Source: Pseudonocardia abyssalis (lineage in GTDB: Bacteria > Actinomycetota > Actinomycetes > Mycobacteriales > Pseudonocardiaceae). From it: a stretch of DNA of 64,000 nucleotides. Position 1 is the first letter of the stretch; each line of letters begins with the position of its first letter. Where the stretch lies: contig NZ_JADQDK010000001.1 of NCBI RefSeq assembly GCF_019263705.2, forward strand, positions 3,782,001-3,846,000. Direction: 5' to 3'. The position numbers were made by a program, and so were the translations under genes. Positions 6,401-20,891 of the stretch are shown here, in pieces. The notes beneath the pieces were generated by a model that did no database searches, had not been told where the DNA came from, and worked only from the letters and a program-made list of their open reading frames with translations.

Positions 6401-7953
6401 CCGACCGGCACCGTCGCCGTCACCGTCGTCCCGACGCCGGGTGCGGATACCCAGCGGACCGACCCGCCGACGGCGCCGAGGCGGTCGGCCATGTTCTGCA
6501 GGCCCGCACCGGTCGGGGCCGCGCCCGCGGGGAAGCCGGGCCCGGTGTCGGCGACCTCCACGACGAGCTGCCCGTCGCGCCGGCCGATCCCGATCTCCAC
6601 CTCGGAGCCGGGGGCGTGCTTGGCCGCGTTCTGCAGGGCCTCCAGGCAGCAGAAGTACACCGCGGCCTCGACCGGCTCCGGGTGCCTGCCGACGTCGGCC
6701 GCGCGCACCTGCACCGCAAGCGGGCTGCGGGCGGCGGCGGCGCGCAGCGCGTCGGGCAGCCCGGCGTCGCGCAGCAGGGGCGGGTAGATGCCGTGGGCGA
6801 GGTCGCGCAGCGCGGAGATCGACTCGCGGACGCCGCGGTCGAGCTCGTCGAGCAGCTCGACGTCGGCCGCGTTGCCCGCCTCCTCGGCGGTGTCGCGCAC
6901 CAGCCGCAGGCCGACCGCGATCGCGACGAGGTGCTGCTGCGCGCCGTCGTGCAGGTCCCGCTCGATGCGGCGGCGCTCCGCGTCGGCCGTGCTGACCAGG
7001 CGCGCGCGGGAGGCCCGGAGCTCGGTGTTGGCGCGACGCAGGTCCGCGAGGGTGTCGGTGAGCGCCTCGTCCAGCGCGCGGTTGCGGAGCACGATCGCGA
7101 GCCGCCGCGCCACCTCGCCGAGTGCACGCTCGTCGGCGCCGGTGACGGCGTCGGCGTCGCCGGTGCGCTCGACGACGATCAGCGCGAGCACCTTCCCCGC
7201 GTGCACCGCGGGTGCGAACCGCAACTGGGTGTCCGGACCCCGCCCCTCCAGCAGCCTCGGCAACCACAGCCGCAGCCACCCCGGCCCCCCGACGCCCGCG
7301 CGGGCGAGCAGCGCCAGGTCGGCCTCGTCCAGCGGCTCCGGTTCCGCATCCCCCGCGACGGCGGGTACGGCGAGGGTGCGGACCAGCTCGTCGCCGTCGC
7401 CGCCCGCGTTCACCGACCAGATCTCGACGCGCGCGAGCCGGTGCTCGCGGCGCAGCGACTCGGCGAGGCGGCGCAGCAGGTCGTCGGCGTCGGGACCGTC
7501 CCCCTCCGCGACGGCGTCGAGCAGCTCGTCCGGGGAGCTGCGGGTGCCGTGAAGGGCGGCGCGGGCCGACTGCGCGGCGCGGCGGGCCAGCGGCCGGGCC
7601 AGCACGGCCGCCACCGCGACCCCCACCAGCAGCGGCGTACCGAGCTCGCGCTCCGCCCCGACCGGCAGGCGCCCGAGCACGAGCGGCACGACGAGCAGGC
7701 CGACGGCCGCGGCGAGCCCGACCGCCCCCGTGACGGCCCCCGCCGCCAGCACCGTCGGGCTCGCGCGGCGCAGCGGCGGGACCTCCCCGGCCAGCGCACC
7801 CAGCAGCACGCACCCGGCCGCGACGGCCAGGGCCACCGGCAGCGGCGGGCCGCCGGCGAGCAGCGACCCCGCGACGGCGACGACGAGCACGCCCGCCGCC
7901 ACCAGCAGCCCCGCCACCAGCAGCGACCACCGCGCCCGGACCCCCGGCCTCAC
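6397..7953 (-). CDS. Sensor histidine kinase, HisKA_3 (NarL partner) type
   Basis: A 518-residue kinase. About four hydrophobic stretches (LLVAGLLVAAGVLVVAVAG onward) fill the first 125 residues. A GAF-like region follows near residues 140-280 and then a coiled linker (DTLADLRRANTELRASRARL). The dimerisation box ERRRIERDLHDGAQQH carries the phospho-His. The HATPase_c domain has the N-box EALQNAAKHA and G-boxes DTGPGFP and GAGLQNM. This class pairs with NarL-type regulators such as the one at 3046. It overlaps both operon neighbours by 4 bp. The multi-pass sensor region without a large outside loop suggests it senses membrane stress or transporter state, which is inference. Confidence 0.88.
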   Translation of the reverse strand: MRPGVRARWSLLVAGLLVAAGVLVVAVAGSLLAGGPPLPVALAVAAGCVLLGALAGEVPPLRRASPTVLAAGAVTGAVGLAAAVGLLVVPLVLGRLPVGAERELGTPLLVGVAVAAVLARPLARRAAQSARAALHGTRSSPDELLDAVAEGDGPDADDLLRRLAESLRREHRLARVEIWSVNAGGDGDELVRTLAVPAVAGDAEPEPLDEADLALLARAGVGGPGWLRLWLPRLLEGRGPDTQLRFAPAVHAGKVLALIVVERTGDADAVTGADERALGEVARRLAIVLRNRALDEALTDTLADLRRANTELRASRARLVSTADAERRRIERDLHDGAQQHLVAIAVGLRLVRDTAEEAGNAADVELLDELDRGVRESISALRDLAHGIYPPLLRDAGLPDALRAAAARSPLAVQVRAADVGRHPEPVEAAVYFCCLEALQNAAKHAPGSEVEIGIGRRDGQLVVEVADTGPGFPAGAAPTGAGLQNMADRLGAVGGSVRWVSAPGVGTTVTATVPVG

Positions 7954-8715: not shown

Positions 8716-8737
8716 GGGGTGGTGGTAGCACCACCCC
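8716..8737. promoter_or_regulatory. Inverted repeat upstream of the kinase/ABC operon
   Basis: The arms GGGGTGGTG and CACCACCCC form a perfect 9-bp inverted repeat with a 4-nt spacer. It lies 43 bp upstream of the operon's TAGGGT box and 40 bp past the stop of the thioesterase gene. The position fits an operator for the nearby NarL regulator, but it could equally be a terminator for the gene at 8778-9212. Confidence 0.4.
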
Positions 8738-8777
8738 GGCGGATGGTCGGACCGTGCGCCCGCGGCGTTACCCCCGG

Positions 8778-9212
8778 TCAGAGACCGAGGACCGCCGGGT
8801 CCGTCGCCAGGTCGCGCAGCCGGGTGCCGGGGTCGGCCACCAACCGGCGCGTGCTCTGGTCCAGCAGCCCCATGACGCCCTCGATCTCCGCGGCGACGAC
8901 GCCGTCGGAGCGCCGCAGGGTGCTGTCCATCGTGAACACGCGGCGCTCCGAGAACGCCGGGCGGCAGTCGACGTCCACCTCGTCGCCGTGGCGCATCTCG
9001 CGCAGGAACCGGACACGGGTCTCCAGCAGCACGATGCCGATGCCGTGCTCGATCATCCGGCCGAACGAGCAGCCCGCGGCGGCGAGCAGTTCGCTGCGGG
9101 CGTGCTCGCCGAACTGGTGGTAGACGGCGTGGTTGACGTGCCCGTTCATGTCGAGCTCGTAGCTGCGCACGCCGACCCGCACGGAGAAGGGGCGCACGGA
9201 GGAGGAAGCCAT
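8778..9212 (-). CDS. 4HBT-family acyl-CoA thioesterase
   Basis: A 144-residue single hot-dog domain. The family's active-site helix region reads YELDMNGHVNHAVYHQFGEH near residue 19; the substrate is probably an acyl-CoA thioester. The ATG at 9212 gives a leader MASSSVRPFSV and has GGAG upstream; another in-frame ATG at 9233 would add seven residues but would overlap the divergent gene's start codon. It is divergent from a second thioesterase at 9232, with only 19 bp between the start codons. This suggests joint control of a thioester-hydrolysing pair. Confidence 0.8.
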   Translation of the reverse strand: MASSSVRPFSVRVGVRSYELDMNGHVNHAVYHQFGEHARSELLAAAGCSFGRMIEHGIGIVLLETRVRFLREMRHGDEVDVDCRPAFSERRVFTMDSTLRRSDGVVAAEIEGVMGLLDQSTRRLVADPGTRLRDLATDPAVLGL

Positions 9213-9231
9213 ACGGGCATGATCTCCGGCC

Positions 9232-9645
9232 ATGACGCAGATGCAGGACCCGGCCCGGGTGCGGATCCGGCGCCGGGTCGAGTGGGCCCAGACCGACGCC
9301 GCCGGGCACCACCACTGGACGGCGGTCCTGCACTGGGCCGAGCAGGCCGAGACCGTGCTGCACGAGCGCCTCGGCATCGCGGAGCGGACGTTCGGGCGCG
9401 AGCCCCGCGTCAACGCGACGGTGGACTTCACCGCACGGTTGTACTTCCGCGACGACGTCGACATCGCCGTCGAGCACGTCGGCACGACGTCCGCGCGCTA
9501 CGCGTTCGCCGTTCTCCGCGGCGACGGGACCGCCGCCCGCGGCACGCTGTCGACCGTGCTCGTGGACCCGGGGTCGGGACGGCCGTCCCCGTGGCCGGAC
9601 GACCTGCGCGCGGCTCTCACCAGCGGCGGCGACCAGGGGCGGTAG
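9232..9645 (+). CDS. 4HBT-family thioesterase
   Basis: A 137-residue hot-dog protein. The YbgC/4HBT active-site region reads VEWAQTDAAGHHHWTAVLHW, with the catalytic Asp at the TD pair, followed by the helix WAEQAETVLHERLGI. The protein length is normal for the family. It is transcribed away from the related gene at 8778-9212 but is not a close copy of it, so the pair is unlikely to be a recent duplication. The stop lies 1 bp from the stop of the convergent DUF2795 gene. The substrate is unknown. Confidence 0.8.
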   Translation: MTQMQDPARVRIRRRVEWAQTDAAGHHHWTAVLHWAEQAETVLHERLGIAERTFGREPRVNATVDFTARLYFRDDVDIAVEHVGTTSARYAFAVLRGDGTAARGTLSTVLVDPGSGRPSPWPDDLRAALTSGGDQGR

Positions 9646-10550: not shown

Positions 10551-10646
10551 GGAGGCGTGAGGGTGCCTGGTGGCCCCCGCGGTCTTCAACACCGACGTGG
10601 CCGAGCATCTCGGCCAGGCGGGTTCGATTCCCGTCCGCCTCCGCCA
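10551..10646 (+). tRNA. selC: tRNA-Sec (selenocysteine), anticodon UCA
   Basis: About 93 nt plus an encoded CCA. GGAGGCG at the 5' end pairs with CGCCTCC near the 3' end. The anticodon stem CGGT/ACCG encloses the loop CTTCAAC, giving anticodon TCA at 10586-10588. A long variable arm (GTGGCCGAG/CTCGGCCAG region) and the T-loop TTCGATT with stem CGGG/CCCG are clear. The long variable arm and UCA anticodon are diagnostic of tRNA-Sec, which reads UGA as selenocysteine after charging with Ser by SerRS and conversion by SelA. It lies 37 bp upstream of a gene with an in-frame TGA; selD, selA and selB are 6-10 kb downstream. Confidence 0.95.
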
Positions 10647-10671: not shown

Positions 10672-10677
10672 TACCGT
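10672..10677 (+). promoter_or_regulatory. Putative -10 box of the selenoprotein gene
   Basis: TACCGT ends 6 nt before the ATG at 10684 and no ribosome site is visible, so the transcript is probably leaderless with its own start just after the tRNA gene. The spacing equals that seen at many other genes in this window. Confidence 0.45.
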
Positions 10678-10683
10678 TCGGCC

Positions 10684-11295
10684 ATGCCTCGACTCCCGCT
10701 CGTCGACCCCGACGACCCCGGTGCCGACCCGCACGCCAGGGCCCTGCTCGGCCGGGTCCGTGAACTGCGTGGCCGCACGCTCAACGTCTACCGGGCCGTC
10801 GGCAACCATCCCGAGGTGCTCGAGGGGCTGCTGCAGTTCGGCTCGGCGGCCTACTTCCGCAACTCGTTGACGCCCGCGCAGAGCGAGTTGGCCTACCTCG
10901 GCGCCTCGGTCGCCAACGACTGCCACTATTGAATCCCGACCCACGTGGTGGCCGGTCGGGCCACCGGACTGACCGAGCAGAAGCTCGCACTGATCGGCGC
11001 GGACCCCCTCCCGGACGGCGTGTACGAGCCGGACGAGGCCGCGATCGTCCGCTACGCGCGGGCGTCGAGCCGGCTCGACCCCATCACCGACGAGCTGTAC
11101 GCGAGCCTGCTCGAGCACTTCACCGAGAAGCAGATCATCGAGATCTGCTTCACGGTCGGCATGTCGAACATGATCAACCGCTTCCACGCGACGTTCCACA
11201 CCGACGTCGACGGCGACACCGAGGAGCTGCTCGGCGCGGTCTGCCCCGTTCGGTTACCACCGCCACCCGGCGGGTCGGTGGCCGATAACCCCTGA
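10684..11295 (+). CDS. Probable selenoprotein: carboxymuconolactone decarboxylase/AhpD-like, Sec at residue 83 (in-frame TGA 10930-10932)
   Basis: Read with TGA at 10930 as selenocysteine, this is a single 203-residue protein. Before the TGA it reads LAYLGASVANDCHY and after it IPTHVVAGRATGLTEQK, both typical of the family. The active-site motif becomes C80-H-Y-U83-I-P-T-H87, matching the C-x-x-C-x-x-x-H of AhpD-type peroxidases with Sec at the second cysteine. A SECIS-like hairpin follows the TGA. Read as a stop, the gene would end inside its active site and leave an orphan second half in the same frame. Family knowledge suggests thiol-dependent hydroperoxide reduction or a related redox reaction; the true substrate is unknown. 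The gene lies 37 bp after tRNA-Sec. Confidence 0.88.
10930..10965 (+). promoter_or_regulatory. UGA-Sec codon and SECIS-like hairpin
   Basis: The recoded TGA is at 10930-10932. Twenty-one nt later a hairpin begins its loop: stem GGTGGCC (10947-10953) with GGCCACC (10959-10965), loop GGTCG (10954-10958). Bacterial SECIS elements place a small apical loop with exposed G and U about 16-37 nt after the UGA; E. coli fdhF has a GGUCU loop 18 nt after it. The loop here shares GGUC. SelB would bind this element to deliver Sec-tRNA. Confidence 0.7.
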
Positions 11296-14819: not shown

Positions 14820-15178
14820 CCGTGCCCGCCACCGCGCCCGTCGTCCTCGCCCGCCGATCGCCGTCGGTCCCACGCGTTCCACCGCGACTGTCTCGCCACC
14901 GCGGTCGGCGAACCGGCCGGCGACGGCGTCCACCTCATGCTGGTCCCGCCGACGCCTTCGGCTGGGTCCTCGGCGGCCGCCCCGTGCACACCGCGGGCGG
15001 CGAGTGCCTGATCGGCCTGGCCGCGGCGGCCGAGTCCAGGGTCGAGGCGCTCGTCGGGGCGGCGGTCCGGCCGGGGCGGCGGTCGTCGGGCGCCGGGGCC
15101 GGCCGTGGGGCCGCACGGCCGTGCTCGCCGATCCGGACGGCCACCCGTGGTCGGTCGAGGCGCACGCTCCTACCCCGG
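14820..15178 (+). pseudogene. Decayed VOC/glyoxalase-family gene with frameshifts
   Basis: No single frame is open, but three frames in order give pieces of a VOC-domain protein: DRRRSHAFHRDCLATAVGEP and GDGVHLMLVPP, then DAFGWVLGGRPVHTAGGECL with AESRVEALVGAAV, then LADPDGHPWSVEAHA. These are the usual start (fyrd-LG), middle (FGWVLG, VDALVAAA) and end (aDPDGHpWEva) of such proteins. At least two frameshifts separate them, so this is a relic. It converges with the Cds1-like gene. Confidence 0.7.
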
Positions 15179-16267
15179 CGGGGCCCACACCCCGTCGGTG
15201 ACGAACCGCTCCAGCGTCGCCGTGTACGGCGCGAGGTCCATGCCCTGCGCGGCGACCCAGGCGTCGTCGTCGTAGCTGTGGCGGTAGCGCTCGCCCCCGT
15301 CGCAGATCAGGGAGACGACGCTGCCGCGCCGCCCGTCGCGCAGCATCCGGGCGACGAGCTGGCACACGCCCCACAGGTTCGTGCCCGTCGACCCGCCCGC
15401 CCAGGTGCCGGTGCGCGCGCGCAGGAAGCGGGCGGCGGCGATGCTGGCGGCGTCGGGGACGGTCATCATCAGGTCGACGACGCCGGGCACGAAGCTGGGT
15501 TCCATCCGCGGGCGACCGATGCCCTCGATCCGCGACGGCAGGCCGGTGGCGTGGTCGGGGTCGCCGCTCGCCCACCCCGGCGCGAACGACGAGTTCTCCG
15601 GGTCCACGACGGCCAGGCGCGTGTCGTGGCGGCGGTAGCGCAGGTAGCGGCCGATCGTCGCCGACGTCCCGCCGGTGCCCGCGCCGACGACGATCCACTC
15701 CGGCACCGGGTGCGACTCCTGCGCCATCTGCTGGAAGATCGACTCCGCGATGTTGTTGTTGCCCCGCCAGTCGGTGGCGCGCTCGGCGTGGGTGAACTGG
15801 TCGATGTAGTGCCCGCCGCACTCCCCGGCGAGCCGCTGCGCCGCCTCGTACATCTCCGGGGCGTGCTCGACGAAGTGGCACCGCGCGCCGTACCGCTCGA
15901 TCAGCCCGATCTTCTCCGGGCTCGTCGAGCGCGGCATCACCGCGACGAACGGCACCCCGATCAGCCGGGCGAAGTACGCCTCGGACACCGCCGTCGACCC
16001 CGAGCTCGCCTCGACAACCGTCGTTCCTTCCACGATGTGCCCGTTGACCAGGGCGTACAGGAACAGCGACCGTGCGAGCCGGTGCTTGAGGCTGCCGGTC
16101 GGGTGCACCGACTCGTCCTTGAGGTAGACCTGCACGCCCCAGTCGCGGGGCAGCGGGAACACGTGCAGGTGCGTGTCGGCGGAGCGGTTGGCGTCCGCCT
16201 CGACCAGCCGGATCGCCTCGTGCACCCAGGCGCGGGTGCGGGCACAGGACCGGTCGACGGGAATCAC
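15170..16267 (-). CDS. PLP-dependent L-cysteine desulfhydrase, Cds1-like
   Basis: A 365-residue fold-type II PLP enzyme. The PLP lysine is in [13 protein letters not shown], the phosphate-binding loop is [16 protein letters not shown], and the substrate-loop motif is [13 protein letters not shown]. It has the features of the Rv3684/Cds1 group, which in M. tuberculosis splits cysteine to H2S, pyruvate and ammonia. The GTG at 16267 has a TAGCGT box ending 6 nt upstream, so it is likely leaderless. It lies between the selenoprotein and the sel genes; a link with sulfide or selenide supply is possible but only inferred. Confidence 0.8.
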
Positions 16268-16742: not shown

Positions 16743-17765
16743 TCAGCGCAGTGCGATGCGGCCCGTGCCCGTGCGGACCGTCCCGATCACCGCGGCCGGG
16801 GCGCCCAGCGCGGCCACCGCCTCCGCCGCCCGCTCCGGGGCCGCGCCGAAGAGCAGGCCGCCGGAGGTCTGGGCGTCGGCCAGGAGCAGGAGATCGACCT
16901 CCCCGTACGCCCCGGCGTCGACGCGCGGCGCCACCCAGTCGCGGTTGCGCCGCGAGCCGCCGGGCACCGTCCCGGCCTCGGCGAGCGCGCGCACGCCGTC
17001 GAGGAACGGCACCGCGGCGACGTCGATCTCCGCATCGACGCCCGACGCCGCGGCCATCTTGGACAGGTGCCCGAGCAGCCCGAACCCGGTGACGTCGGTG
17101 CAGCCGGTGGCGCCCGCGGCGAGCGCGGCGGAGGCGGCGGGGCCGTTGCTGCGCGTCATCGACGCCACCGCGGCCCCGGTCAGGCCCGCGGGCACGGTGC
17201 CGGCCTTGATCGCCGTCGTCGCGATGCCGATGCCGAGCGCCTTGGTCAGGACGAGCACGTCGCCGTCGCGCAGTCCGGCGTTGGTGAGGATGCGGTCCGG
17301 GTGCACCTCGCCGATCACGGCGAGCCCGTACTTGGGCTCCGGGTCGTCGACGCTGTGACCGCCGACGACGGCGAACCCGCTCTCCGCGCCGATCTCCGCC
17401 CCCCCGGCCAGCACCTCGCCGAGCACCGACATCGGCAGCTCGTCGCGCGGCCAGGCCACGATGTTGAGCGCGAACAACGGCCGCCCGCCCATCGCCCAGA
17501 CGTCCGACGCCGCGTTCTGTGCCGCGATCCGGCCCCAGGTGCGCGCGTCGTCGACGACGGGGGTGAAGAAGTCGGTGGTGGCGACGAGCGCACGGTCGGC
17601 GTCGAGACGCCACACGGCGGCGTCGTCGCCGGTCTCGGTGCCGACCAGCAGGTCCGGTGCGGTCGGCGGCGTGAGGGTGGCGAGCAGCTCGGCCAGGTGC
17701 TCCGGGCCGAGCTTGCACCCGCACCCGGCGCCGTGGCTGAACTCCGTGAGACGTCGACCGGTCAT
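16743..17765 (-). CDS. selD: Selenide, water dikinase
   Basis: A 340-residue enzyme that makes selenophosphate from selenide and ATP, the selenium donor for SelA. The N-terminal catalytic motif HGAGCGCK has Cys15 and Lys18, matching E. coli Cys17 and Lys20; the catalytic residue is Cys, not Sec. Other family motifs are GDDAAVWRLD, NAASDVWAMGGRPLFALNIV and GHSVDDPEPKYGLAV. The ATG at 17765 follows a TAGGCT box by 7 nt. It is divergent from selA with overlapping promoter boxes. Confidence 0.95.
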   Translation of the reverse strand: MTGRRLTEFSHGAGCGCKLGPEHLAELLATLTPPTAPDLLVGTETGDDAAVWRLDADRALVATTDFFTPVVDDARTWGRIAAQNAASDVWAMGGRPLFALNIVAWPRDELPMSVLGEVLAGGAEIGAESGFAVVGGHSVDDPEPKYGLAVIGEVHPDRILTNAGLRDGDVLVLTKALGIGIATTAIKAGTVPAGLTGAAVASMTRSNGPAASAALAAGATGCTDVTGFGLLGHLSKMAAASGVDAEIDVAAVPFLDGVRALAEAGTVPGGSRRNRDWVAPRVDAGAYGEVDLLLLADAQTSGGLLFGAAPERAAEAVAALGAPAAVIGTVRTGTGRIALR

Positions 17766-17788: not shown

Positions 17789-19087
17789 GTGACCGACGTG
17801 CGCCGTCTCGTGCCGCGGACCGACGCCGTACTCGCGCAGCCGGCCGTCGCGGCGGCGGCGGAGCGGCTGGGTCGGGCGCTGGTGAAGGAGGCCGTCGTGG
17901 CCGCGCAGGCGCGCGCGCGGTCCGGGGAGATCGCCCCCGCCGACGTCGCGGACGCCGCCCTGGCCGCCCTCCCCGGCACCCCGACGACGCTGGCGCCCGT
18001 CCTCAACGCCACCGGCGTGCTGCTGCACACCAACCTCGGACGGGCCCCGCTCTCCGCCGCCGCGCGGGCCGCGCTCGACCTCGCCGCAGGCACCTGCGAC
18101 GTCGAGCTCGACCTCGCGACGGGCGGGCGCGGCCCCCGCGGTACCGCCGCGATCGACGCCCTGCTCGCCGCCGTGCCCGGGGCGGCCGCGGCGCACCTGG
18201 TGAACAACGGGGCGGCGGCGATCGCGATGGTCGCCGCGACACTCGCCGGGGGCGGCCGGGAGATCGTCATCGCCCGCGGCGAGCTGGTCGAGATCGGCGC
18301 CGGGTTCCGCATCCCCGACCTGCTGACGGCGACGGGCGCGCGGCTGCGCGAGGTCGGCACGACCAACCGCGTGCACCGCGACGACTACGCCGCGGCCGTC
18401 GGCGAGGACACCGCGTTCGTGCTCAAGGTGCACCCGTCGAACTTCGTGGTCAGCGGGTTCACGCACTCCTGCGGGGTCGACGAGCTGACCGGGCTCGGCG
18501 TGCCGGTCGTCGCCGACATCGGCTCCGGGCTGCTCGCCCCGCACCCCCTGCTCCCCGACGAGCCCGACGCCGCCAGCACGCTCGCGCAGGGCGCCGCGCT
18601 CGTCACCGCGTCCGGCGACAAGCTGCTCGGCGGCCCGCAGGCCGGGCTGCTGCTCGGCGCGCCCGGCGAGGGCGCCGACCTCGTCGCCCGCATCCGCCGC
18701 CACCCGCTCGCCCGTGCGATGCGCGTCGACAAGCTGACGCTCGCCGCGTTCGAGGCCACCCTGCGCGGGCCGGTGCCGCCCACCCGGCTCGCCCTGGACG
18801 CCGACCGGGCGACGCTGCGGACGCGGGCGGAGCGGATCCTCGCCCGGCTCCCCGGCGTCGACGCGGCCGTCGTCGACAGCGCCTCGACCGTCGGCGGCGG
18901 CGGTGCGCCCGGCGTCGCGCTGCCCAGCGCCGCGCTCTCGCTGCCCGCGTCCTACGCCGCCGCCCTGCGCGCCGGTCGGCCCGCCGTGCTGGGCCGCCTG
19001 GAGCACGGCCGGTGCCTGCTCGACCTGCGGGCCGTGCCGCCGGAGTCCGACGACGCGCTGGTGGAGGCGGTCGGCCGTGCGCGGTGA
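17789..19087 (+). CDS. selA: L-seryl-tRNA(Sec) selenium transferase
   Basis: A 432-residue PLP enzyme that converts Ser-tRNA(Sec) to Sec-tRNA(Sec) with selenophosphate. The PLP lysine is Lys278 in SGDKLLGGPQAGLLLG, as in E. coli SelA. The motifs NATGVLLHTNLGRAPLS and GTTNRVHRDDY are also typical of the family. The length is close to the usual 430-460 residues, so the decameric long form is expected. The GTG start lies 6 nt after TACGAT. Its end overlaps the chosen selB start by 11 bp, so the two are translated together. Confidence 0.95.
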   Translation: MTDVRRLVPRTDAVLAQPAVAAAAERLGRALVKEAVVAAQARARSGEIAPADVADAALAALPGTPTTLAPVLNATGVLLHTNLGRAPLSAAARAALDLAAGTCDVELDLATGGRGPRGTAAIDALLAAVPGAAAAHLVNNGAAAIAMVAATLAGGGREIVIARGELVEIGAGFRIPDLLTATGARLREVGTTNRVHRDDYAAAVGEDTAFVLKVHPSNFVVSGFTHSCGVDELTGLGVPVVADIGSGLLAPHPLLPDEPDAASTLAQGAALVTASGDKLLGGPQAGLLLGAPGEGADLVARIRRHPLARAMRVDKLTLAAFEATLRGPVPPTRLALDADRATLRTRAERILARLPGVDAAVVDSASTVGGGGAPGVALPSAALSLPASYAAALRAGRPAVLGRLEHGRCLLDLRAVPPESDDALVEAVGRAR

Positions 19088-20891
19088 CCGTGGCCCCGGC
19101 AACGGTCACCGCGCACGGGTGGTGGCCACCGCCGGTCACGTCGACCACGGCAAGTCCACGCTCGTCCGCGCTCTGACCGGCATGGAGCCGGACCGCTTCG
19201 CCGAGGAGCGCCGCCGGGGCATGACGATCGACCTGGGCTTCGCGTGGACCGACATCGGCGCGCGCACCGTCGCGTTCGTCGATGTCCCGGGCCACGAGCG
19301 GTTCGTCACGACGATGCTCGCCGGGATCGGGCCCGTGCCCGCGGTGCTGCTGGTCGTCGCCGCCGACGAGGGCTGGATGCCCCAGTCCGCCGAGCACCTC
19401 GACGCACTCGCCGCCCTCGGCGTCCGCGACGGCCTGCTGGTGATCACGCGCAGCGACCTCCTGGAACCCGACCTCGCGCTCGACGACGCCCGCTCCCACC
19501 TGCGCGGCACGACGCTGGAGGGGATCCCGGCCGTCGCGGTGTCGGCCCGGACCGGCGCCGGGATGGACGACCTGCGCACCGCGCTGGGCACACTGGTCGA
19601 CCGCCTGCCCGCCCCGGACGACGCCGCCGACGTCCGGCTGTGGGTCGACCGCGCGTTCACCGTGCGCGGCGCGGGCACCGTCGTCACCGGGACCCTGCAG
19701 GCCGGGCGTCTGCGGGTCGACGACGACCTGGAGCTGGCCGGGACCGACGGCACGCGGCGGGTGTCGGTCCGCGGGCTGCAGAGCCGGGGCGAACCCGTCG
19801 GGGAGGTGGGCGGGGTCAGCCGGGTGGCGGTCAACCTGCGGGGGGTGCCGCGCGAGACCCTGACCCGGGGCGACGTCCTGCTCACCCCCGGTGCGTGGCT
19901 CACCACCGATACCGTCGACGTGCGCCTGGACTCGGGCGACGACGACCTGCCGCGGGAGCTCACCCTGCACGTCGGGTCCGCCGCTGTCACCGTCCACGTG
20001 CGTCCGCTCGGTGCCGACACCGCACGCCTGCGGCTGCGGCACCCGCTGCCGCTGCGCATCGGCGACCGGGCCGTGCTGCGCGACCCCGGCCGCCGCCGCG
20101 TACGCGCCGGGATCAGCGTGCTCGACGTCCGCCCACCGGACCTGCGTCGCCGCGGCTCGGCGGCGGCCCGCGCCGTCGTGCTGGACACGATGGACGGCCG
20201 GGCCGACCCGGGCACGGAGCTGCGCCGCCGCGGGATCGTGCGGCGTGCCGAACTGGCCGCGATGGGCGTCCCGGTCGACGGTCTCGGGTCGGGCCCCTGG
20301 CTGGTCGACCCGGACCGCGCCGTGACGGCCGCGCGCGACCTCGCCGCCGCCGTCGACGCCCACGACCGCGCCGACCCGCTCGACCCCGGCCTGCCGACGG
20401 AGGCCGCCCGCCGTTCCGCGGACCTGCCCGACACCCGGCTCCTCGACGCGGTCCTGCCGTACGCCCCGGGGCTCGTCCACCGCGACGGGCGCGTCGTCCG
20501 GACGGCGGCCGCGGGACTGACGCCCGCCGTCGTCGCGGGGCTGGAGGCGCTGCGCGAGGACCTGGCACGGGAGCCCTTCGCCGCACCCGACGCCGCACGG
20601 CTCGCCGAGCTGGGCCTCGGTCCACGCGAACTGGCGTCGCTGGTGCGCGCGGGTGAACTGCTCCGCCTCGCCGACGGGGTGGTGCTCCTCGCCGGGGCCG
20701 ACGACCGCGCGGTGGCGACGCTCGCCGGCCTGCCCACGGAGTTCACCGCGAGCGCGGCCCGGCAGGCGCTGGGCACCAGCCGGCGGGTCGCCGTGCCGCT
20801 GCTGGAGCTGCTCGGGCGCACCGGACGCACCGTGCGCACCCCGAACGGGGCGCACCGGCTCCGCGCCTCGGGTGGCAGTGCACCCCCCTGA
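19077..20891 (+). CDS. selB: Selenocysteine-specific elongation factor
   Basis: A 604-residue translational GTPase that brings Sec-tRNA(Sec) to UGA codons marked by a SECIS hairpin. G1 is GHVDHGKST, G2 region RRGMTIDLGF, G3 DVPGHE, G4 TRSD (E. coli SelB has TKAD). EF-Tu-like domains II and III follow and the last 200 residues form winged helices that bind the SECIS. The GTG at 19077 overlaps selA; GTGs at 19119 or 19122 just before VATAGHVDHGK are alternatives. Immediately downstream is a STAS gene unrelated to selenium. Confidence 0.95.
   Translation: MRGDRGPGNGHRARVVATAGHVDHGKSTLVRALTGMEPDRFAEERRRGMTIDLGFAWTDIGARTVAFVDVPGHERFVTTMLAGIGPVPAVLLVVAADEGWMPQSAEHLDALAALGVRDGLLVITRSDLLEPDLALDDARSHLRGTTLEGIPAVAVSARTGAGMDDLRTALGTLVDRLPAPDDAADVRLWVDRAFTVRGAGTVVTGTLQAGRLRVDDDLELAGTDGTRRVSVRGLQSRGEPVGEVGGVSRVAVNLRGVPRETLTRGDVLLTPGAWLTTDTVDVRLDSGDDDLPRELTLHVGSAAVTVHVRPLGADTARLRLRHPLPLRIGDRAVLRDPGRRRVRAGISVLDVRPPDLRRRGSAAARAVVLDTMDGRADPGTELRRRGIVRRAELAAMGVPVDGLGSGPWLVDPDRAVTAARDLAAAVDAHDRADPLDPGLPTEAARRSADLPDTRLLDAVLPYAPGLVHRDGRVVRTAAAGLTPAVVAGLEALREDLAREPFAAPDAARLAELGLGPRELASLVRAGELLRLADGVVLLAGADDRAVATLAGLPTEFTASAARQALGTSRRVAVPLLELLGRTGRTVRTPNGAHRLRASGGSAPP

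Follow-up and report, generated by a model that had tools for sequence, protein, structure and literature searches.

Does an in-frame TGA just downstream of a tRNA-Sec gene end a protein, or does it encode selenocysteine (Sec)? We addressed this question in a stretch of 64,000 nucleotides (hereafter the window) from the 6.3-Mb genome of Pseudonocardia abyssalis (contig NZ_JADQDK010000001.1, positions 3,782,001 to 3,846,000). A sequence-only reading had proposed that the gene in question, which starts at position 10684 of the window, encodes a selenoprotein of the carboxymuconolactone decarboxylase (CMD)/AhpD family, with Sec in the active-site CxxC motif. Judging from the codons, tRNAs and hairpins compared across 20 genomes, the UGA at 10930 is almost certainly decoded as Sec.

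A single TGA interrupts the frame at the active site

A frame of 203 codons (10684-11295) contains the TGA at 10930-10932 as its sole interruption. Active sites of the AhpD/CMD family follow the spacing E-x11-C-x2-C/U-x3-H. With the TGA read as Sec, the window protein displays this spacing as E68-x11-C80-H-Y-U83-I-P-T-H87, and the TGA falls on the second active-site Cys, where it had been placed by the sequence-only reading. E68, C80, U83 and H87 are invariant in all 21 genes described below. The family similarity also runs on without a break: the Pfam CMD model (PF02627) matches residues 43-104, on both sides of the TGA, with 50 bits (cut-off 23), and the AhpD core model TIGR00778 scores 34.4 bits, above its cut-off of 27.8. 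The best NCBIfam match is TIGR01926, at 46.8 bits under its cut-off of 81.8; the scores on NF041238 (23.6, cut-off 175) and NF053654 also lie under the cut-offs. The sequence and a predicted structure (mean pLDDT 92.4) together point to an AhpD/CMD fold with this active-site arrangement.

Gene callers were expected to split such a gene, and they do. A plain listing of open reading frames (ORFs) divides it into one ORF of 120 aa and another of 116 aa. None of the best 120 of 175 database matches covered more than 58% of the query; all twelve sequences that we opened begin directly 3' of the stop. A search with residues 1-100, whose length rule shut out proteins no longer than the first half (82 residues), returned one protein, ending ...NDCHY; because this protein comes from a 511-base contig, its end may be that of the contig.

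The relatives carry TGA or TAG in the same column

Searching 390 Pseudonocardiaceae genomes, we found 12 genes in 11 genomes, the window included, with 49-100% identity and a TGA inside every one; the remaining matches had at most 35% identity among the matches listed. The best named relative found was Pseudonocardia hydrocarbonoxydans, whose protein is 89% identical. An order-wide search of 397 genomes gave a match in eight at E <= 1e-25: two were known already, and the other six were Geodermatophilaceae, all six with TAG in place of TGA. The TAG form was first met on a named Geodermatophilus contig. Among 112 Geodermatophilaceae genomes there are nine genes, those six included, with exactly one TAG each. 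The total is 21 genes in 20 genomes, 11 with TGA (Pseudonocardiaceae) and 9 with TAG (Geodermatophilaceae).

When the 21 genes were aligned, the stop occupied a single column amid the invariant C80, Y82, P85, T86 and H87. Both halves of the protein retain invariant residues in 21/21 genes. A tree of the 21 proteins requires at least two codon changes, and a clade with support of 100/99 mixes four TGA genes with five TAG genes. The final tree was built without Cys outgroups; an earlier version with three of them had branches of ∼10. Comparing the window gene with three relatives, we counted differences at codon positions 1/2/3 of 4/2/6, 4/3/17 and 8/5/20 upstream of the stop and of 1/3/7, 2/2/14 and 8/13/21 downstream of it.

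The sequence-only reading predicted that homologues would show Cys or Sec at residue 83. The 21 genes have TGA or TAG there, and Cys relatives appeared only at about one third identity or below; the searches made did not find a close Cys form. The AhpD proteins of Mycobacterium tuberculosis (1gu9, 1knc) and Streptococcus pneumoniae (6e8l), which have Cys in place of Sec, are 10% and 19% identical to the window protein. Plasmid records gave 309 matches at E <= 1e-5, none with 60% identity or more (the best among the matches listed had 32%).

Two further sequences with a TGA were excluded from the count of 21. One, L008, is a contig of an actinobacterial metagenome-assembled genome that ends after the site and is 64% identical over residues 1-86. 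The other is a distant AhpD-like frame of genome G207 (28% identity; L130, G207:C1:2948000-2965000, 8728-9255; also L029). It reads N-D-C-T-Y-U-M, has no His at +4 and lies near selB and a tRNA-Sec gene at 7757-7851, perhaps as part of a second selC-linked group of Sec-containing AhpD-like proteins. G207 has two high-scoring tRNA-Sec genes (C1:1034947-1035037 and C1:2955760-2955850), one adjoining selA and the other selB.

The codon follows the anticodon of the host tRNA-Sec

A tRNA-Sec reaching the Rfam cut-off is present in 20/20 gene-carrying genomes. The best match has the anticodon UCA in 11/11 TGA genomes and CUA in 9/9 TAG genomes. The nine CUA tRNAs score 64.2-69.5 bits on the Rfam tRNA-Sec model (cut-off 47), and ARAGORN calls every one of them tRNA-Pyl (L086, L093-L100), by anticodon: an annotation trap in organisms that use UAG for Sec. 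Could the Geodermatophilaceae also have a second, UCA-type tRNA-Sec? We rejected this candidate: the other matches close to the cut-off, including one just below it, are tRNA-Ser, and they leave the anticodon count unaffected.

The UGSC family served as a control in the same 20 genomes. Its matches contain TGA in 8/8 Pseudonocardiaceae cases and TAG in 12 of 13 Geodermatophilaceae cases, the thirteenth having no stop. The residue before GSC was read in 10 of the 21 matches: TGA in five (Pseudonocardiaceae), TAG in four (Geodermatophilaceae) and Cys in the match without a stop. UGSC proteins follow the same codon rule as the AhpD-like gene.

A hairpin with a conserved loop follows the codon

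Bacterial selenocysteine insertion sequence (SECIS) elements place a G-bearing apical loop 16-37 nt past the Sec codon. In the window gene, a 7-bp stem carries the loop GGUC(G), which begins 21 nt past the stop; a 7-bp hairpin with a GGUC loop stands at this distance in 21/21 genes, in one of them with a mismatch. Scoring 15 distinct hairpin sequences, we found 7/7 pairs in 14 and 6/7 in L017; L119, scored separately, has 7/7. There are two registers: the TAG genes L073-L076 share a 5-nt loop with the window's group, and the rest have a 4-nt loop.

Shuffling codons while keeping the protein gave mixed results for folding energy: in ten sequences, the fraction of shuffles at least as stable ranged from 0.0105 to 0.9465 (the maximum being L017), with 0.0535 for the window. 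A test for stem and loop at a fixed place was picked after these results. Random codons for the same peptide gave the stem with GGTC at frequencies of 0.00055-0.0091; codon usage came from seven window genes and was applied to every lineage, and an eighth gene was dropped because its frame, as used, contained four stops. Two pairs are altered on both sides in the 5-loop set (5 distinct rows), a result equalled by 20 of 500 shuffles. In the 4-loop set (11 distinct rows) one pair is altered on both sides, in 5 cells; none of 500 shuffles reached 5 cells, but by number of pairs the set is no better than shuffles (496/500). Sliding the partner strand lowered the paired cells from 98.7-100% to 26-52% and kept one double-sided pair in 1 of 12 slid versions. 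The support for the hairpin is comparative.

Weighing Sec against other readings of the codon

The agreement of TGA with UCA and of TAG with CUA across 20 genomes and two families makes Sec close to certain. Together with the conserved hairpin, the presence of selA, selB and selD in the same island and the lack of a close Cys form, it supports Sec at the second active-site Cys, as the sequence-only reading had claimed. The UAG relatives provide the strongest evidence for Sec and may be regarded as close to a natural proof.

Several observations weigh against Sec decoding. Matches to tRNA-Sec above the Rfam cut-off are common in Pseudonocardiaceae (271/390 genomes), so their presence in all carriers is weak evidence by itself. 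Eight second matches to the tRNA-Sec model in Geodermatophilaceae (L101-L108), at 47.5-49.7 bits, are tRNA-Ser; since the cut-off admits tRNA-Ser, counts based on it, such as 271/390, may be slightly high. Each codon is confined to one bacterial family, and thus the agreement does not amount to 20 independent events. Third positions lead throughout in the codon comparisons, but the lead is weak upstream of the stop in the closest pair and downstream of it in the widest pair. The hairpin of L017 has one broken pair, and random codons for the same peptide give the stem alone at frequencies of up to 0.0985, the value for the window. The SECIS-like hairpin claimed by the sequence-only reading is present and has comparative support, yet the window's own fold adds nothing to it: taken alone (43 nt), it is no stabler than shuffles (z -0.06), 81 of 200 of which fold equally well.

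If the TGA were nevertheless a true stop, the locus would hold a pseudogene or two short proteins, the first of 82 aa (120 aa if an upstream start is used) and the second of up to 116 aa, as the split ORF listing and the storage of the downstream half in databases as a separate protein might indicate. This is highly improbable, because the stop column is identical in 21 genes and tracks the tRNA-Sec anticodon, because catalytic E68 and C80 precede the stop and H87 follows it, and because invariant residues persist in both halves of every gene. Readthrough might instead insert an amino acid other than Sec; Trp or Gln at UGA and pyrrolysine at UAG are the candidates. The tRNA-Pyl label on the nine CUA tRNAs speaks for such a residue, but it is based on the anticodon; the same tRNAs fit the Rfam tRNA-Sec model, selC has selA and selB nearby in each of the six Geodermatophilaceae genomes (of nine) whose regions were read, UGSC proteins obey the same codon rule, and the available text of PMC5330540 already reports UAG-Sec in this family. 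The chance of another residue is next to negligible, and we retain Sec.

The gene and the sel island

All four sel genes (selA, selB, selC and selD) lie within the window (Table 1), in the order STAS, selC, AhpD-like gene, amidase, further ORFs, Cds1, selD, selA, selB. The tRNA-Sec ends at 10646 and the ATG of the gene follows 37 bp downstream, the distance given in the sequence-only reading. The true start of selB is probably further in, because the TIGR00475 match starts at residue 73 of the listed ORF.

Table 1. Position of the Sec-related features in the window.
Feature	Position	Strand	Evidence and remarks
TACCGT, leaderless-type -10 element (TAnnnT)	10672..10677	+	Ends 6 nt 5' of start codon; putative promoter element
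Predicted AhpD/CMD-family selenoprotein gene, 203 aa	10684..11295	+	Terminal stop 11293-11295; frame read with TGA as Sec
In-frame TGA, predicted Sec codon (U83)	10930..10932	+	Same column TGA (12) or TAG (9) across 21 genes
SECIS-like hairpin GGTGGCC-GGTCG-GGCCACC	10947..10965	+	7 bp; apical loop starts 21 nt after TGA
selC, tRNA-Sec, anticodon TCA	10551..10646	+	ARAGORN; Rfam RF01852 10551-10642, 75.1 bits, cut-off 47
selD, selenide, water dikinase	16743..17765	-	TIGR00476 387.8 bits, cut-off 125
selA, L-seryl-tRNA(Sec) selenium transferase	17789..19087	+	TIGR00474 387.6 bits, cut-off 267.9
selB, Sec-specific elongation factor	18903..20891	+	TIGR00475 269.8 bits, cut-off 242.25; ORF as listed
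Cds1, L-cysteine desulfhydrase	15170-16267	-	NF052478 622.2 bits, cut-off 600; between amidase and selD

The same order is found in genome G291 (L121) and, to the extent of their contigs, in L005 and L006. In Geodermatophilaceae, selA lies within ∼2.1 kb and selB within ∼3.5 kb of selC in the six genomes whose regions were read. Four genomes of this family have the AhpD-like gene inside the sel run itself: the order is selD, selC, AhpD-like gene, selA, selB in G542, G559 and G674 and selD, AhpD-like gene, selC, selA, selB in G579. Unexpectedly, the gene lies at most 80 bp from selC in 8/20 genomes, in both families and in differing gene orders; it is distant from selC or on another contig in the other 12. 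We also considered adjacency to selC as a family-wide rule and rejected it: among the 30 best-scoring other selC loci (3.1 kb each), only one, that of G207, had an AhpD-like gene beside selC.

In genome G293 (L132, G293:C1:1206000-1221000) the island runs STAS-selC-amidase-Cds1-selD-selA-selB, with no AhpD-like gene separating selC from amidase; two AhpD-like copies lie elsewhere in that genome. The difference reflects gain or loss of the AhpD-like gene. The sel islands of L006, L121 and L132 also contain Cds1, which might act as a supplier of selenium or sulfide.

The region between selC and the ATG differs within the family. A TAnnnT element stands 6-7 nt before the start in 9/9 genes of the window's clade (4 TGA, 5 TAG) and within 15 nt of the start in 0/12 others. 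Outside this clade, 11 of 12 genes have GGAGG or GGAAGG in that 15-nt stretch (by eye), L076 being less clear. Judging from the TAnnnT element, a leaderless promoter of its own, located between selC and the ATG, probably drives the window gene. Two modes of translation start apparently coexist in one selenoprotein family.

Other Sec clients

The sequence-only reading regarded the gene as the probable client of selC. Their adjacency is confirmed, but the gene is not the sole client in this genome: a Sec formate dehydrogenase is encoded ∼2 Mb away. Formate dehydrogenase has a TGA at NRTU-HAPSV in 9/11 Pseudonocardiaceae carriers, and the best match in G283 and G314 has Cys at that site. In the Geodermatophilaceae carriers, formate dehydrogenase matches at E <= 1e-100 were all without an internal stop. 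G559, G579, G741 (70% complete) and G314 carry tRNA-Sec and the AhpD-like gene, and in these four genomes a search limited to three selenoprotein families found no stop-bearing formate dehydrogenase at E <= 1e-100 and no UGSC match. In L126 and L127 (genus g5), the Sec AhpD-like gene is followed ∼4.5 kb downstream by a formate dehydrogenase-like gene that has no internal stop.

A proposed mechanism

We propose that the frame at 10684-11295 specifies a selenoprotein of 203 residues with the AhpD/CMD fold. SelB would read the hairpin at 10947-10965 and bring Sec-tRNA(Sec), encoded 37 bp upstream of the gene, to UGA 10930. Sec83 would stand in for the second cysteine of the CxxC motif, with Glu68 and His87 as its proton relay, and would attack an oxidised substrate, for which a hydroperoxide or a disulfide is the most likely candidate. 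Cys80 would then resolve the product to a selenenylsulfide, which a cellular thiol would reduce. The reaction, the substrate and the reductant are suggested by analogy with the family, and the sharper thiol-peroxidase chemistry that the sequence-only reading expected of Sec is an inference as well. As a whole, an AhpD/CMD-fold selenoprotein decoded by SelB and performing redox chemistry at Sec83 is a likely account of the locus; that thiol oxidoreductase or peroxidase activity is its main role seems rather probable on family grounds.

Two other roles have to be considered. The AhpD fold also includes the debrominase Bmp8, and the selenoprotein might serve reductive dehalogenation instead of peroxide or disulfide reduction; we find this unlikely, as sequence identity to Bmp8 is only 15% and a common fold does not show function. 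Alternatively, the protein might work for the Sec system itself: it could reduce selenium compounds, for instance, or sense how much selenium is available, and its location with selC, selA and selB would then be explained. Its place at most 80 bp from selC in 8/20 genomes of two families with different gene orders, its position within the sel run of four Geodermatophilaceae and the four genomes where no stop-bearing formate dehydrogenase or UGSC match was found all favour such a role. Yet 12/20 genomes have the gene at a distance from selC or on a different contig, the four-genome negative covers only three selenoprotein families with G741 70% complete, and joint transfer alone may explain the adjacency. 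A role in the Sec system is a possibility that we hold with considerable doubt. We are just as hesitant about its fuller form, in which a Sec-containing redox protein travels with selC, acts on selenium compounds or signals Sec supply, and in a few genomes accounts mainly or wholly for the retention of Sec decoding. We favour the thiol oxidoreductase or peroxidase.

Relation to known systems and significance

Selenoproteins of the AhpD/CMD kind with a CxxU motif have been known since 2005, according to the available parts of PMC1088965, PMC2398784 and PMC13188914. Table 1 of the last lists an 'AhpD-like protein' (TIGR01926, CxxU) and a 'CMD-like protein' (PF02627, CxxU). The window protein shares the CMD family and Sec at the second CxxC position with the AhpD-like CxxU selenoproteins published from the Sargasso Sea and GOS sets, as far as the available text describes these. 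It differs in scoring under the TIGR01926 cut-off, a comparison made by profile and description only, and the present members are actinobacterial, often selC-linked, and use UGA or UAG.

NF041238, an AhpD-related (seleno)protein with CFYUT, corresponds to hypothetical protein 1 of the Sargasso set in the available part of PMC13188914. At the site, C-F-Y-stop-T is the reading in all genes outside the window's clade but L076, and 21/21 members match the model at E <= 1e-3. The model, however, has 357 positions, against 203 aa in the window protein, which stays far under its cut-off as given above. The window protein may represent an unmodelled group, as judged by profile scores.

For UAG-Sec in Geodermatophilaceae, the text available from PMC5330540 traces formate dehydrogenase and UGSC proteins to Mukai et al. 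2016 and contributes AhpC of Blastococcus saxobsidens as an addition of its own. The present genes share with these the CUA tRNA-Sec, TAG at the Sec site and the bacterial family; the difference is that this text names formate dehydrogenase, UGSC and AhpC and no AhpD-like protein. The literature already contains both AhpD-like selenoproteins with CxxU and UAG-encoded Sec in Geodermatophilaceae. In the literature searched, within its available text, we found no AhpD-like selenoprotein named with UAG or within a sel cluster.

The specialist interest of the family lies in the pairing of UGA and UAG and in its position among sel genes. Because one family uses both codons, each fitting the host tRNA-Sec, Sec can be identified almost by sequence comparison alone. 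The half-protein entries among the database matches listed and the tRNA-Pyl label mean that annotation conceals both the gene and the CUA tRNA-Sec. Relative to the account in the available text of PMC5330540, the UAG-Sec proteins of Geodermatophilaceae would be extended by an AhpD-like protein. The family is a clean natural test of a Sec-codon swap in which hairpin and protein are retained, and its location among sel genes in two families provides a testable hint of function.
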